A stretch of DNA of 40,025 nt from Bacilli bacterium. GTDB lineage: Bacteria > Bacillota_I > Bacilli_A > RFN20 > CAG-826. Location: the NCBI GenBank assembly GCA_017477255.1, contig JAFUXB010000002.1, forward strand, positions 246,474 to 286,498, written 5' to 3'. Below are positions 20,759 to 25,083 of this stretch, piece after piece. The notes beneath the pieces were generated by a model. The model did no database searches. It was given only the letters and a program-made list of their open reading frames with translations, and was not told the origin of the DNA. A program made the position numbers and the translations under genes. How positions within the stretch are numbered: position 1 is the stretch's first letter; every line of letters begins with the position of its first letter.

Positions 20759-22479
20759 TAATTAACCCCGTTTTTTAGCGCTATTTTATTTAAAGCATTA
20801 TTAACAATATCTAAAGCTTGTTTATATTCACCATTTTTATATAAGTCTTCAGCTTGTTCAATAATAGAATTAATATCTGCAAATTTATTACGGTCTCTAT
20901 TAGCAGTAATAATTAAATTTCTTGCAGAACGTTTTAAATGTTTAACTTCTTCTACATTTTTAAATAAATTAGATGATAATTCAGTTAATGTATTTACAGT
21001 TTTATTAAGCTTTAAAATATCAATTGGAACTACAGATAAAATCGCATTAATTTCATCTAACATTTGGAATAATTTATCAAAATCATCAGCATAAACTTTA
21101 TAATGTTTTGGATAATTTTGTTTTAAATCACTAAAGTATTCTTTTGCTTTTAAATAATGAGTAGCAATTAATTTATATGCGTTTTCTGCATCGTTTTTTA
21201 AACTTGAAATATAAGTTAAATAATTATTGATTTTAGCGTTAAATTCACCGTTTCCACGTTTTAAATCTTCCATTTTACTAACTAAATCTTTAAATAAAGT
21301 TTTTTCCATGGAATGGACATAAATTTCAAGTCTTCTTTTGTCTTTACTTACTTCATTTAATTTATCTTTGAGTTCATTAAATTGTTCTTCATGTGATGGA
21401 TCAATTACATAATATTTTTTAATTTTAACCATCGCATTTGATATATTAATGAATTCTTTTTCAAGTTTTAAGAAATTATTATTTACTGCTTCATATTCAT
21501 TTTCAAAAATAACTTTACAATCTTTTTCTTGTTTAAATGATTCATGATATCCATTGATTAAGTTATAAATTGAATCAATTTCTTGTCTAATTCCATTAAT
21601 TCTTAAGCCTTTTAATCTTTCTTTAATTTCATCAATTTTAAATTGAATATTAGAAACTGTATCTTCTACTCTAAATGATGCTAAAGGATAACCTTCTTGA
21701 ACCATTTCATTATATTCTTTAACTAATTCATCAATTTCATCTGGTAAATAAATATTTACTTCTTTGATTAATTTTGGAATTTCAGTTATTAAAACCCCCA
21801 AAACCTCAAGTATTTTTTCAATTTCAGGGATCATTGCTTTAGCTTCATCATAGTTTGCAGTTTCTACTGCAGCTTCATAATCATAGAATTTATTTTCAAT
21901 ATTTTCGAAAACTTTTTGGAATGAATCATATACAAAAACTAAATCATTTTCATAAGAATTAAATTCTGATTTAACTTTTCTAAATTCATCTTTATATTTT
22001 AAGATTTGTTGTCTAGCTTCTTCTTCAGGTTTAATAATGTCATAAAGTTTATTAGAAAATGATTTAACACTTTCTTCAAAACCATTTAAAACATCAACAT
22101 TATCTCTATAATATTGTTTTAAACCTTTATAATCTTTTTGGAAAAATTTATCTTTTAATTCATTTAAAATTTCTAAATATTGTGCATCTTGATTATCTCT
22201 AATTTCTTTAAATTGTCTAAAATAAGTAGCATGAATATCTGAATACAAAAGATTAGATCTAGAAATAATTTCTAATCTTTGAATATATTGAGCATCTTGT
22301 CCTAAAAGTAAAGAATGGTTATATTCATACTTTTTTTCAACTTCATTTAAGATTTTTTTAGAATTTGCTTTCTTAATAATTAATTTTTCAATAAGTATAA
22401 AAGCACCTACTAAAAGAGCAACGCCAACGATACTTAAAACAATAATTAATGTTAATGTCATTGTACTTAAAAATACCAT
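20758..22479 (-). CDS. ezrA: Septation ring formation regulator EzrA
   Basis: 573 residues, the usual EzrA length. There is one N-terminal membrane segment (about 8-29, LTLIIVLSIVGVALLVGAFI) with a very short outside part, followed by a long coiled-coil cytoplasmic region rich in Glu, Lys and Leu. Motifs such as HSLLLGQDAQYIQRLEIISR and VYVHSMEKTL-like patterns fit the spectrin-like EzrA repeats. In Bacilli EzrA links the membrane to FtsZ and prevents extra Z rings. It begins a unit with the cysteine desulfurase and thiI (1-bp overlaps). No SD precedes either ATG at 22479 or 22461; a perfect 10-bp inverted repeat covers the first ATG. A repeat copy lies in the coding region at about residues 221-230. 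Confidence 0.88.
   Translation of the reverse strand: MVFLSTMTLTLIIVLSIVGVALLVGAFILIEKLIIKKANSKKILNEVEKKYEYNHSLLLGQDAQYIQRLEIISRSNLLYSDIHATYFRQFKEIRDNQDAQYLEILNELKDKFFQKDYKGLKQYYRDNVDVLNGFEESVKSFSNKLYDIIKPEEEARQQILKYKDEFRKVKSEFNSYENDLVFVYDSFQKVFENIENKFYDYEAAVETANYDEAKAMIPEIEKILEVLGVLITEIPKLIKEVNIYLPDEIDELVKEYNEMVQEGYPLASFRVEDTVSNIQFKIDEIKERLKGLRINGIRQEIDSIYNLINGYHESFKQEKDCKVIFENEYEAVNNNFLKLEKEFINISNAMVKIKKYYVIDPSHEEQFNELKDKLNEVSKDKRRLEIYVHSMEKTLFKDLVSKMEDLKRGNGEFNAKINNYLTYISSLKNDAENAYKLIATHYLKAKEYFSDLKQNYPKHYKVYADDFDKLFQMLDEINAILSVVPIDILKLNKTVNTLTELSSNLFKNVEEVKHLKRSARNLIITANRDRNKFADINSIIEQAEDLYKNGEYKQALDIVNNALNKIALKNGVN
21791..21818 (+). repeat. Dispersed 27-bp repeat, in ezrA
   Basis: The plus strand reads AAAACCCCCAAAACCTCAAG and then TATTTTTT. 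It is nearly the same as the copy at 34146-34172. On the ezrA strand it is antisense and encodes ILEVLGVL with the rare codons TTG and GGG. Confidence 0.5.
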
Positions 22480-22500
22480 ATTGTTATTTTATAACAATAT
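22478..22500 (-). promoter_or_regulatory. Palindrome over ezrA start codon and -10 region
   Basis: ATATTGTTAT (22478-22487) and ATAACAATAT (22491-22500) are a perfect 10-bp inverted repeat with spacer TTT. It contains the ezrA ATG (22477-22479) at one end and -10 candidates TAAAAT (22486-22491) or TATAAA (22488-22493), 6-8 bases before the ATG. It could be an operator or an RNA hairpin around the start. Confidence 0.5.
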
Positions 22501-22534: not shown

Positions 22535-25030
22535 CTAATTACCTAAAATATTAGCGTAATCTGGTGCGCCTTTATTTTCAATAGCCATTCTATACATCAT
22601 TGATTCAAAATATGTGATGTTTGCTTCACTCTTTCTATCAACTAATGTATATGAACCATCAACTTTATTGTAATATTTATAATCTCTAGTTCTAGTTGCA
22701 CCAGTAACTGTAGATTTATAACCATCACATTCAATAGTTAAATTGCCACAAATTCCTGCCCAATAAACTTCATTTGTCGCTTTACCCATTCTAATCATTG
22801 CATCTAAATATGGATGAGTTGAGAAGTTAGGAGTTTGGCTAGGATCACTAGTTTTTAAAGGAGCATTAACAAAACATAAATCTGGGTTTAAATATGAGAT
22901 GAAATCATCTTTATTTGAACCATTTGATCCATGATGTAATCCTTTAAATATTACATAATCATCATCAGTAAATAATCCTGGATAACTCTTAATAAATTGT
23001 TTACATGAGCTATCTTCCATATCTCCACCCATGAAAAGTTTTGTATTTTTATAATTGAAAATAGCTGGAATTGATGCGTTATTTTTATTTGATCCAGTAA
23101 ACATATCGTTATACATAATATCAATACTAAAATCGTTATCTACATTGATTGTATAAACTCTTTCAGTAGGTGAGGTAAGTTCACTTGCTACTTCTAAAGT
23201 TGCATTAGGATATAAAGAATTAACTTTATTTATGATGTTATTATTATCTGAATGAGAATTATTAGTAATTAATCTTTTAACTTCACTTACTCCTTCAAAG
23301 CCATTTCCACTAACAAGTCCTGCATAGTGGTCACTATCAGGGTGAGAAATAATAACTAAATCTAAAATTCCATCTTCTAAATATTCATTTAATAAATTTT
23401 TAATATATGGTCCATCAGCTTGAGTGCCACCATCAACTAATACGTCATAATTACCATATTGGATGAGGTTACAATCACCATATGTACCATTCATTTCAAG
23501 ACTATGAATAGTAAATCCATTACCTGTAATTTCTCCTGGATCTACTTCTTTAATTTCTTCAAATTCAACAGAAACGCTGCAATTCCCAGTTATTTTTGCT
23601 TTTCCAACGTTATTTGTAGCTCTAACTAATGTAGTTCCAACTAAGATTTTTTTGACTTGGTAACCTTCATCTGGATGACAAGTAATTGTTACTTCTTCAT
23701 TATAAGAAAGATCTTTAGTTTTACTTACTTCATAAGTTCCATGTGTAGTTTCTGTTAAAATTAATTCATATTTAACAGCAACAAAATCAACTACTTCATA
23801 ATTAATTATTTCTGGTGTTCCATAATAATTTTGAAGTTGACCAACTACTGTAACTTCATAGCCAATATACATATTTTTAACTTCTTCAGCGGAATAACAT
23901 TTAATATAGTTATCACCACTAGTTAATTTTGTAATTGAACCATTAATTTCAGTAACTGTACCTTTAATTTTATAAAATTCTTCAGAAGTTCCTTTATTTC
24001 TTGATAAGCCTTTAGCAATACTAACAGCTTCAGCAATTGTAACTTCTTTAGCTACAATTTCTTCTTTTTCACCACTATAAGTAACGATAAATTCTTTACA
24101 ATCTAAATCTTCAGTAGTTTCATTTTTAATAATAAAACCATCATATTTTTCTTCAAATTCGTATGTTGTTTTACTAGTGGCTGTGTCATATTTCCAACTA
24201 ATTTTAGTTTCTACTTGGTCTTTAATTCCATAAACACTAAATTTAGTGCTACCATTAACCATTTCGATATTTACAATATTTATTAAGTTAGGAGATTTAA
24301 TAAATGAATTTGCTTTAAATAATAAGTGTGTATCGTTATTTTCAACACCACTTACTTCAAGTCTAGAATCTTTTTTATAAGTATCTTTATTAATGTTAAT
24401 AATGCCTTCTTTTTCTACATAAGGCATTTCTCCACTAATTTCACCTTTATAAAAGATTGTAATTGAGTATAAATGAACGTCATAAGAGCTTGGATTTTCA
24501 ATTCTAAATTCATCAGCACCATTACTAAAAACATAGATGTGATCGGTTGCTGAATTATAATTAGGATTTGCTTCACTAGTTCCTGTTATTTCAGTTCCAC
24601 CACTTACTTTGTCATAAACTTTTAAATTGTCATAAGTTCCATAAGCTGTAGCAACGATTTTAGTTACTTGTTTAATACAACTTGAACTAATTTTTCCTGT
24701 AGATTTTTTAACAGTAAATTCTTCAGGATAAGTAGCATTAGGAACAACATCAACAAGACTAATATAATTTAATTTATTGAAGTTATTTGTATCTAATGTT
24801 AATGTTTTTTCTTCATCTGGATTTACTGGATCAACAGGTTGATCAGGATTATCTGGATTGTCAGGATTATCTGGTTGATCTGGTTGATCTGGTTTATCAG
24901 GATCATCAGGTTTATCAGGATTTACAACATCTGGATCTTTTGGTGTAGTTTCACTAAAATCACCAACATCACAAGATGTAACCATAAAAGCAAGTGCAGC
25001 TAAGCAAAATAACGTTTTTAGTTTTTTCAT
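22535..25030 (-). CDS. Surface lipoprotein with ComEC-type metallo-beta-lactamase domain
   Basis: 831 residues. The lipobox ends FMVTSC (Cys20). Residues about 32-72 are a Pro-Asp repeat linker (PDKPDDPDKPD, DNPDNPDNPD). Two beta-sandwich-like regions follow (about 80-190 and 200-320), an OB-fold-like domain (about 325-415, FYKIKGTVTEINGSITKLTS), an InlB/Flg_new-type repeat (about 420-490) and a metallo-beta-lactamase domain (about 505-790). The last has ISHPDSDHYAG (His563, Asp565, Asp567, His568), FMGGD (668-670) and GLHHGSNGS (His699, His700), the pattern of the ComEC C-terminal domain. That domain is thought to cut DNA, so a cell-surface nuclease is plausible; this is inference. SD AGGAG. 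It lies between the hydrogenase genes and ezrA, on the same strand. Confidence 0.8.
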   Translation of the reverse strand: MKKLKTLFCLAALAFMVTSCDVGDFSETTPKDPDVVNPDKPDDPDKPDQPDQPDNPDNPDNPDQPVDPVNPDEEKTLTLDTNNFNKLNYISLVDVVPNATYPEEFTVKKSTGKISSSCIKQVTKIVATAYGTYDNLKVYDKVSGGTEITGTSEANPNYNSATDHIYVFSNGADEFRIENPSSYDVHLYSITIFYKGEISGEMPYVEKEGIININKDTYKKDSRLEVSGVENNDTHLLFKANSFIKSPNLINIVNIEMVNGSTKFSVYGIKDQVETKISWKYDTATSKTTYEFEEKYDGFIIKNETTEDLDCKEFIVTYSGEKEEIVAKEVTIAEAVSIAKGLSRNKGTSEEFYKIKGTVTEINGSITKLTSGDNYIKCYSAEEVKNMYIGYEVTVVGQLQNYYGTPEIINYEVVDFVAVKYELILTETTHGTYEVSKTKDLSYNEEVTITCHPDEGYQVKKILVGTTLVRATNNVGKAKITGNCSVSVEFEEIKEVDPGEITGNGFTIHSLEMNGTYGDCNLIQYGNYDVLVDGGTQADGPYIKNLLNEYLEDGILDLVIISHPDSDHYAGLVSGNGFEGVSEVKRLITNNSHSDNNNIINKVNSLYPNATLEVASELTSPTERVYTINVDNDFSIDIMYNDMFTGSNKNNASIPAIFNYKNTKLFMGGDMEDSSCKQFIKSYPGLFTDDDYVIFKGLHHGSNGSNKDDFISYLNPDLCFVNAPLKTSDPSQTPNFSTHPYLDAMIRMGKATNEVYWAGICGNLTIECDGYKSTVTGATRTRDYKYYNKVDGSYTLVDRKSEANITYFESMMYRMAIENKGAPDYANILGN

Positions 25031-25066
25031 AAATACTCCTAAATAATGTGAATTTCAAAGCAAAAA

Positions 25067-25083
25067 AGCCTCAGAACGAGGCT
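25067..25083 (-). terminator. Terminator of the hydrogenase operon
   Basis: AGCCTC (25067-25072) pairs with GAGGCT (25078-25083), loop AGAAC; read on the minus strand it runs into TTTTTTG. It lies just past the hydA stop and before the next gene's SD. Confidence 0.85.

Follow-up and report, generated by a model that had tools for sequence, protein, structure and literature searches.

A Bacilli lipoprotein that joins a predicted OB fold to a ComEC-type metallo-beta-lactamase domain, with relatives that carry the two as paired genes

A predicted lipid-anchored protein of a small-genome Bacilli bacterium (GTDB lineage Bacillota_I; Bacilli_A; RFN20; CAG-826) combines an OB-like fold with a metallo-beta-lactamase (MBL) domain of the ComEC type, on one chain that lacks the ComEC membrane channel. 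It is encoded in a stretch of 40,025 nucleotides (assembly GCA_017477255.1, contig JAFUXB010000002.1, positions 246,474 to 286,498 of the forward strand), hereafter the window. In relatives from the same order the two parts recur as neighboring genes, a linkage that is new here. We lean slightly toward the view that the protein is a metal-dependent phosphodiesterase, anchored by lipid at the cell surface, that serves mainly to cut extracellular nucleic acid.

The gene and its domains

The lipoprotein gene occupies positions 22535 to 25030 of the minus strand and encodes 831 amino acids, with an ATG start and an AGGAG site ahead of it at 25040 to 25036. A hairpin resembling an intrinsic terminator (25067 to 25083, unstranded, with T runs on both strands) separates it from the hydrogenase gene upstream; hydrogenase genes adjoin it across this terminator, and neither comEA nor comEC lies in its vicinity. 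The gene downstream encodes a coiled-coil protein that is presumably EzrA-like. At the start codon of this downstream gene is a perfect 10-bp inverted repeat, ATATTGTTAT-AAA-ATAACAATAT (22478 to 22500), which is possibly an operator. We rejected LmuB as an identity for this neighbor, as the match was weak (20 bits) and was attributed to the coiled coil.

The domains are those of the first-pass annotation, a model's reading of the sequence alone, and all lie on the minus strand. The protein begins with a signal peptide and lipobox (residues 1 to 20; 24971 to 25030), in which VTSC at residues 17 to 20 follows a hydrophobic stretch and, by pattern and by eye, forms a signal peptidase II lipobox. 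An acidic Pro-Asp linker (residues about 36 to 76; 24803 to 24925) is plain in the composition of the sequence. The "beta domains" proved to be two copies of one domain, at residues 74 to 197 (24440 to 24811) and 210 to 321 (24068 to 24403), the second diverged and recovered with an HMM of the first at an i-E of 2.3e-10. The first copy is also found on OB lipoproteins and on an Endonuclease I lipoprotein (L007, genome G056; 81 bits).

Residues 324 to 421 (23768 to 24061; model ma621e466c97e) form an OB fold as far as structure prediction supports it. In an AlphaFold model of residues 71 to 495 (mean pLDDT 80.8), this part (model residues 254 to 351) has a pLDDT of 79 to 97 in nearly all ten-residue blocks and aligns with OB domains of LysRS, Stn1-Ten1, and RPA at VIA-align Z scores of 11 to 12, in a match list that bears hardly at all on the beta and InlB-like domains. 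An InlB-like repeat (Flg_new_2; residues 421 to 493; 23552 to 23770) scores 21.8 bits in Pfam, under the cut-off of 23.6, and its homologs in two related lipoproteins exceed the cut-off at 44.3 and 49.7 bits.

A ComEC-type active site

The MBL domain (residues about 503 to 779; 22694 to 23524), beyond which there is a C-terminal extension, matches Pfam Lactamase_B at 26.7 bits (cut-off, 22.7) and was modeled by AlphaFold on 20 sequences with a pLDDT of 92 and a pTM of 0.92 (model m534a29322709). Among solved structures, this model is matched best by the Moorella glycerini ComEC nuclease domain (9ic4; Z 26.3, 2.4 Å, 250 residues), followed by Pce/CbpE (Z 22.8, 3.2 Å) and then RNase J (Z 17.3), and a sequence profile ranks likewise (ComEC, E 4.5e-25; Pce, 2e-12).

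The ComEC motifs that the first-pass annotation had named are kept exactly: HPDSDH at residues 563 to 568 (motif II; 23327 to 23344), GGD at 668 to 670, and HHGSNGS from 699 (HHGS, 699 to 702, at 22925 to 22936). A further ligand-type motif absent from that annotation, HP at 739, contributes H739 (22814 to 22816), which is invariant in 20 aligned stand-alone rows. These rows fall to about 25% identity; the residues at the ligand positions (H, D, H, N, D, H, H, and HP) are the same in all of them, except that the second position of motif II is His or Asp. The portion of PMC12455585 on the ComEC nuclease describes mutational tests of H598, D600, D602, H603, D700, H725, and S728; in pairwise and profile alignments with 9ic4, counted by hand, all seven are identical here, as H563, D565, D567, H568, D670 (metal ligand; 23021 to 23023), H699, and S702, respectively. 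In the part of PMC8579336 that describes it, the ComEC domain is reported to act as a phosphodiesterase and nuclease that depends on Mn. Given this activity, the intact metal site, and the ComEC-like fold, it is well supported, as a prediction from sequence and model, that the MBL domain is an active phosphodiesterase; we infer that nucleic acid is its substrate.

The position of Pce as second-best structural match leaves room for a different substrate. In a surface esterase like Pce/CbpE, the teichoic acid phosphorylcholine esterase (1wra, 2bib), the MBL domain would act on teichoic acids or host molecules, stripping off phosphorylcholine or a comparable phosphodiester head group, with glycan binding left to the beta domains. 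Such a role would suit the surface location, the beta domain and InlB-like repeat as surface-type modules, the acidic OB, and the weak match of a carbohydrate-binding model, NPCBM, to relative L154, which has two beta-domain copies (20.5 of 23.9 bits). ComEC, however, leads Pce by 3.5 Z and some 13 orders of E-value, no choline-binding repeats appear among the Pfam matches of the lipoprotein, and Pce has HTHSDH, with His where motif II has Asp here, and HH(h)DT instead of HHGS. The Asp-versus-His difference is itself weak, because this position varies within the family (23 His and 10 Asp among 33 close ORFs). We regard the esterase function as rather unlikely.

Both OB folds and MBLs serve a wide range of functions. 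This breadth, with the acidic surfaces, would also accommodate a secreted MBL of some other activity, acting on cyclic nucleotides, lactones, or other phosphoesters, with an OB fold that serves for protein contact only. Against this, ComEC, Pce, and RNases J and Z top the structural list and no lactonase appears in its best 50 rows, and we give such an activity a low probability.

Independence from ComEC

The lipoprotein has no membrane channel, as the first-pass annotation had stated: the full-length ComEC_Rec2 model scores 22.3 of 190 bits, covering the MBL part only, and there is no match to Pfam Competence (PF03772). A search of the genome for comEA and comEC, which that annotation had proposed, found both. 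With a relative's ComEC as the query, a full ComEC was recovered at G000:C2:146156-147946 (E 9e-143); it has 671 amino acids, and next to it lie a gene resembling holA and one for an HHH_3 protein of the ComEA type. The variant that the annotation had envisaged, a ComEC lacking an MBL domain, was not found in the genome, as this ComEC carries its own (THYDYDH, GDAS, LGHHGSS, and KHPH). The annotation had also paired two findings as counting against its reading. The first is true, in that the genome has a ComEC complete with an MBL domain; the second, a non-nuclease active site in the lipoprotein, is false, as the site is not degenerate and all seven tested residues are identical. PF03772 misses this true ComEC (L084:1483-3498); absences by that model in the order are therefore unreliable and were not used.

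A tree of 104 MBL domains also separates the two proteins. It was built by a quick method from 104 of 159 matches (the window row, ComEC rows above 50 bits, 28 of the named stand-alone rows, and, for the order, the first 34 rows plus every third), with rows called ComEC by a crude hydrophobicity count. The window row groups with 34 stand-alone rows (SH-aLRT 98), and this group nests in 61 stand-alone rows (SH-aLRT 100), apart from all 22 ComEC rows; the window genome's ComEC clusters with the ComECs, and 21 other stand-alone rows from named organisms fall on the ComEC side. The ComEC channel is present in 43 of the 46 genomes with stand-alone MBLs, the window genome included. Because the genome's ComEC is complete and the tree separates both MBLs, we rejected the idea that the lipoprotein is a displaced ComEC domain, and the proposed separateness from a ComEC pore stands. 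Compared with the extracellular MBL of ComEC/Rec2 (TIGR00361 C-terminus; 9ic4, 30bt), the protein shares the fold, the seven tested residues, HxDxDH, the bridging D, HHGS, and an OB partner. It differs in being a lipid-anchored lipoprotein without a channel, from another tree clade, with a longer insert, a C-terminal extension, and an acidic OB (pI 4.7) set among an InlB-like repeat and beta domains.

DNA uptake, which the first-pass annotation had offered beside nutrition, found no support. As a part of natural transformation, the protein would trim or nick DNA at the surface for ComEA/ComEC uptake, and the genome indeed has comEA and ComEC, and the domain is of ComEC type. Yet the gene is not linked to comEA or comEC, ComEC has its own MBL, and occurrence is patchy: of 279 genomes in the order, 93 (the window genome among them) match the MBL part of the lipoprotein at an E up to 1e-6. 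No pilus ATPase exceeds the cut-off in the window genome, which is 53% complete (best, 19.5 of 24.9 bits), and the relatives lie beside OB and Ig lipoproteins and, in some cases, Endonuclease I, with no competence genes. We consider this role very improbable. The PF00437 search also returned two places that agree in score and in reading frame (398 aa, one TGA), L265 (G000:C3:24196-24507) and L266 (G000:C7:133031-133342), perhaps a repeated mobile gene.

Anti-phage MBLs were rejected, given the secretion signal and scores of 44.7 of 420 bits for Avs1a and 12.9 of 220 for 6A-MBL, as was LmuA, with 50 bits from a partial match whose best stretch is 79 residues.

OB and MBL genes are paired in relatives

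The nearest relatives of the MBL domain (G125, 49%; G121, 46%; G086, 38%) are short MBL lipoproteins that lack the N-terminal half. For G121 and G086 this half, made up of beta, OB, and InlB-like domains, is encoded by the adjacent downstream gene as a lipoprotein of its own. In the nearest neighbors, L138 and L139, the OB gene is downstream of the MBL gene, the reverse of the fusion order. In another branch (L152, L160 to L163, L167, L173, and L200), the ORF directly upstream contains an OB, the intervening gap being −8 to 18 bases; these upstream ORFs are mostly Ig-domain lipoproteins (five of eight scanned and positive).

By a scripted count, an OB-domain ORF is the immediate same-strand neighbor of 15 of the 32 close MBL ORFs, those that match the HMM built from alignment A4 at an E below 1e-80. 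The count leaves out L153 to L156, which had been chosen for OB or beta matches, and L205, which is the same locus as L170; L171 and L183 supply no MBL ORF because the ORF caller preferred other frames, and in the genome of L171 (G072) the OB place is 1.6 kb before the MBL place. In the same loci, 16 of 39 adjacent ORFs were OB positive, versus 2 of 210 other ORFs (Fisher p 7e-13, with related rows and an OB HMM that was trained on part of the counted rows and iterated on the same loci). The neighborhoods cover most MBL places of the order, with G083:C22 and G078:C8 among those left out.

A genome-wide search matched the OB domain in 128 of 245 genomes, mostly at 1 to 3 places each, so chance adjacency to an MBL gene is small. 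At an E below 1e-14 there are 22 OB places in the 245 genomes: 18 have an MBL place close by on their own contig and strand, 1 is the window itself, and 3 have no MBL nearby (G092, G264, and G079). Four of the five places from outside the A5 alignment (G072, G083, G078, G193, and G079) are near an MBL place; nearness was read from match tables, a partly independent look in which intervening genes are known for fetched regions only. OB and MBL thus recur as separate paired genes, of which the window gene is a fused form, with the order reversed in its nearest relatives.

Two arrangements differ from these pairs. At L153:4675-7536 (G092:C18), a beta-OB-InlB lipoprotein stands behind a DHH-type gene, which we take to be NrnA-like, and the fetched stretch holds no MBL gene. 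Four loci of one genus, g50 (L164, L168, L169, and L170), have stand-alone MBL genes in tandem, with Endonuclease I downstream in L164; the adjoining gene looks to us like mnmA.

Channel-less MBL lipoproteins are already in print for haloarchaea. The passages of PMC3929857 and PMC5118699 that treat Halobacterium NRC-1 ComA and Hlac_1867 describe lipoproteins that resemble ours in the lipobox, the COG2333/ComEC-like MBL, and the lack of a channel; they differ in being archaeal and in having a Lamin Tail Domain instead of the OB, beta, and InlB-like domains. Pfam finds no Lamin Tail Domain in the 831-residue protein. In H. volcanii, according to the same passages, a thermonuclease takes the place of the MBL beside the Lamin Tail Domain. 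They also suggest that the Lamin Tail Domain-MBL lipoproteins take part in extracellular DNA metabolism. In open-access PMC texts we found no account of an OB-MBL lipoprotein or of an OB/MBL gene pair.

Evidence on a nucleic-acid substrate

Of the order's 279 genomes, 259 have Endonuclease I (PF04231), with up to 10 matches per genome; it was not found in the 53%-complete window genome. This secreted nuclease resembles the lipoprotein in bearing the beta domain once (L007) and in having MBL neighbors in one genus: in 7 loci, all from g50, the distance from a stand-alone MBL to Endonuclease I is one or two genes. It differs in its catalytic domain, which is unrelated to MBL.

Several points speak against nucleic acid. 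The OB of this type is on 0 of 40 Endonuclease I ORFs (30 loci), and a link between the two was rejected on that count; the seven shared loci come from a single genus, L138 and L139 have the OB and MBL genes in reverse order, and Pce, a surface esterase, shares the MBL fold. The OBs are acidic (all 17 aligned ones, pI 4.1 to 5.0), as is the MBL domain, at pI 4.65 versus a median of 6.27 for ComEC of the order; positive charge is how ComEC's OB binds DNA, in the part of PMC12455585 concerned with that domain. The Endonuclease I domains of the order, an established nuclease family, are acidic too (median pI 5.1, n = 47), so net charge does not decide the matter. In favor of nucleic acid, PMC12455585 reports that the nuclease activity of ComEC is markedly higher with OB on the same chain. 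All told, what the first-pass annotation observed is confirmed, and its interpretation is partly supported.

If cutting nucleic acid outside the cell is indeed the main task of the lipoprotein, its signal peptide and lipobox would place it outside the membrane and the Pro-Asp linker would cross the cell envelope. Holding the substrate, or serving as a scaffold, would fall to the beta, OB, and InlB-like domains, with the OB perhaps as the DNA-holding part, and the ComEC-type two-metal site of the MBL domain would hydrolyze phosphodiester bonds. OB and MBL together would repeat the two outer domains of ComEC in the absence of the channel, and the products may supply nucleotide or phosphate salvage, a nutritional role. 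We put forward more tentatively, as a doubtful though possible extension, that small-genome bacteria have re-created the OB and MBL outer half of ComEC as lipoproteins, from linked or fused genes, in a separate system that works alongside ComEC and feeds on environmental DNA, with an OB mode unlike ComEC's binding by positive charge.

If this is right, the ComEC nuclease fold would have its own lineage of secreted proteins in which it is repeatedly paired with an OB domain, and the fused and split forms would be natural OB/MBL constructs for testing how an OB helps an MBL nuclease. Extracellular nucleic acid would then be a food source for small-genome bacteria, in an order rich in Endonuclease I.
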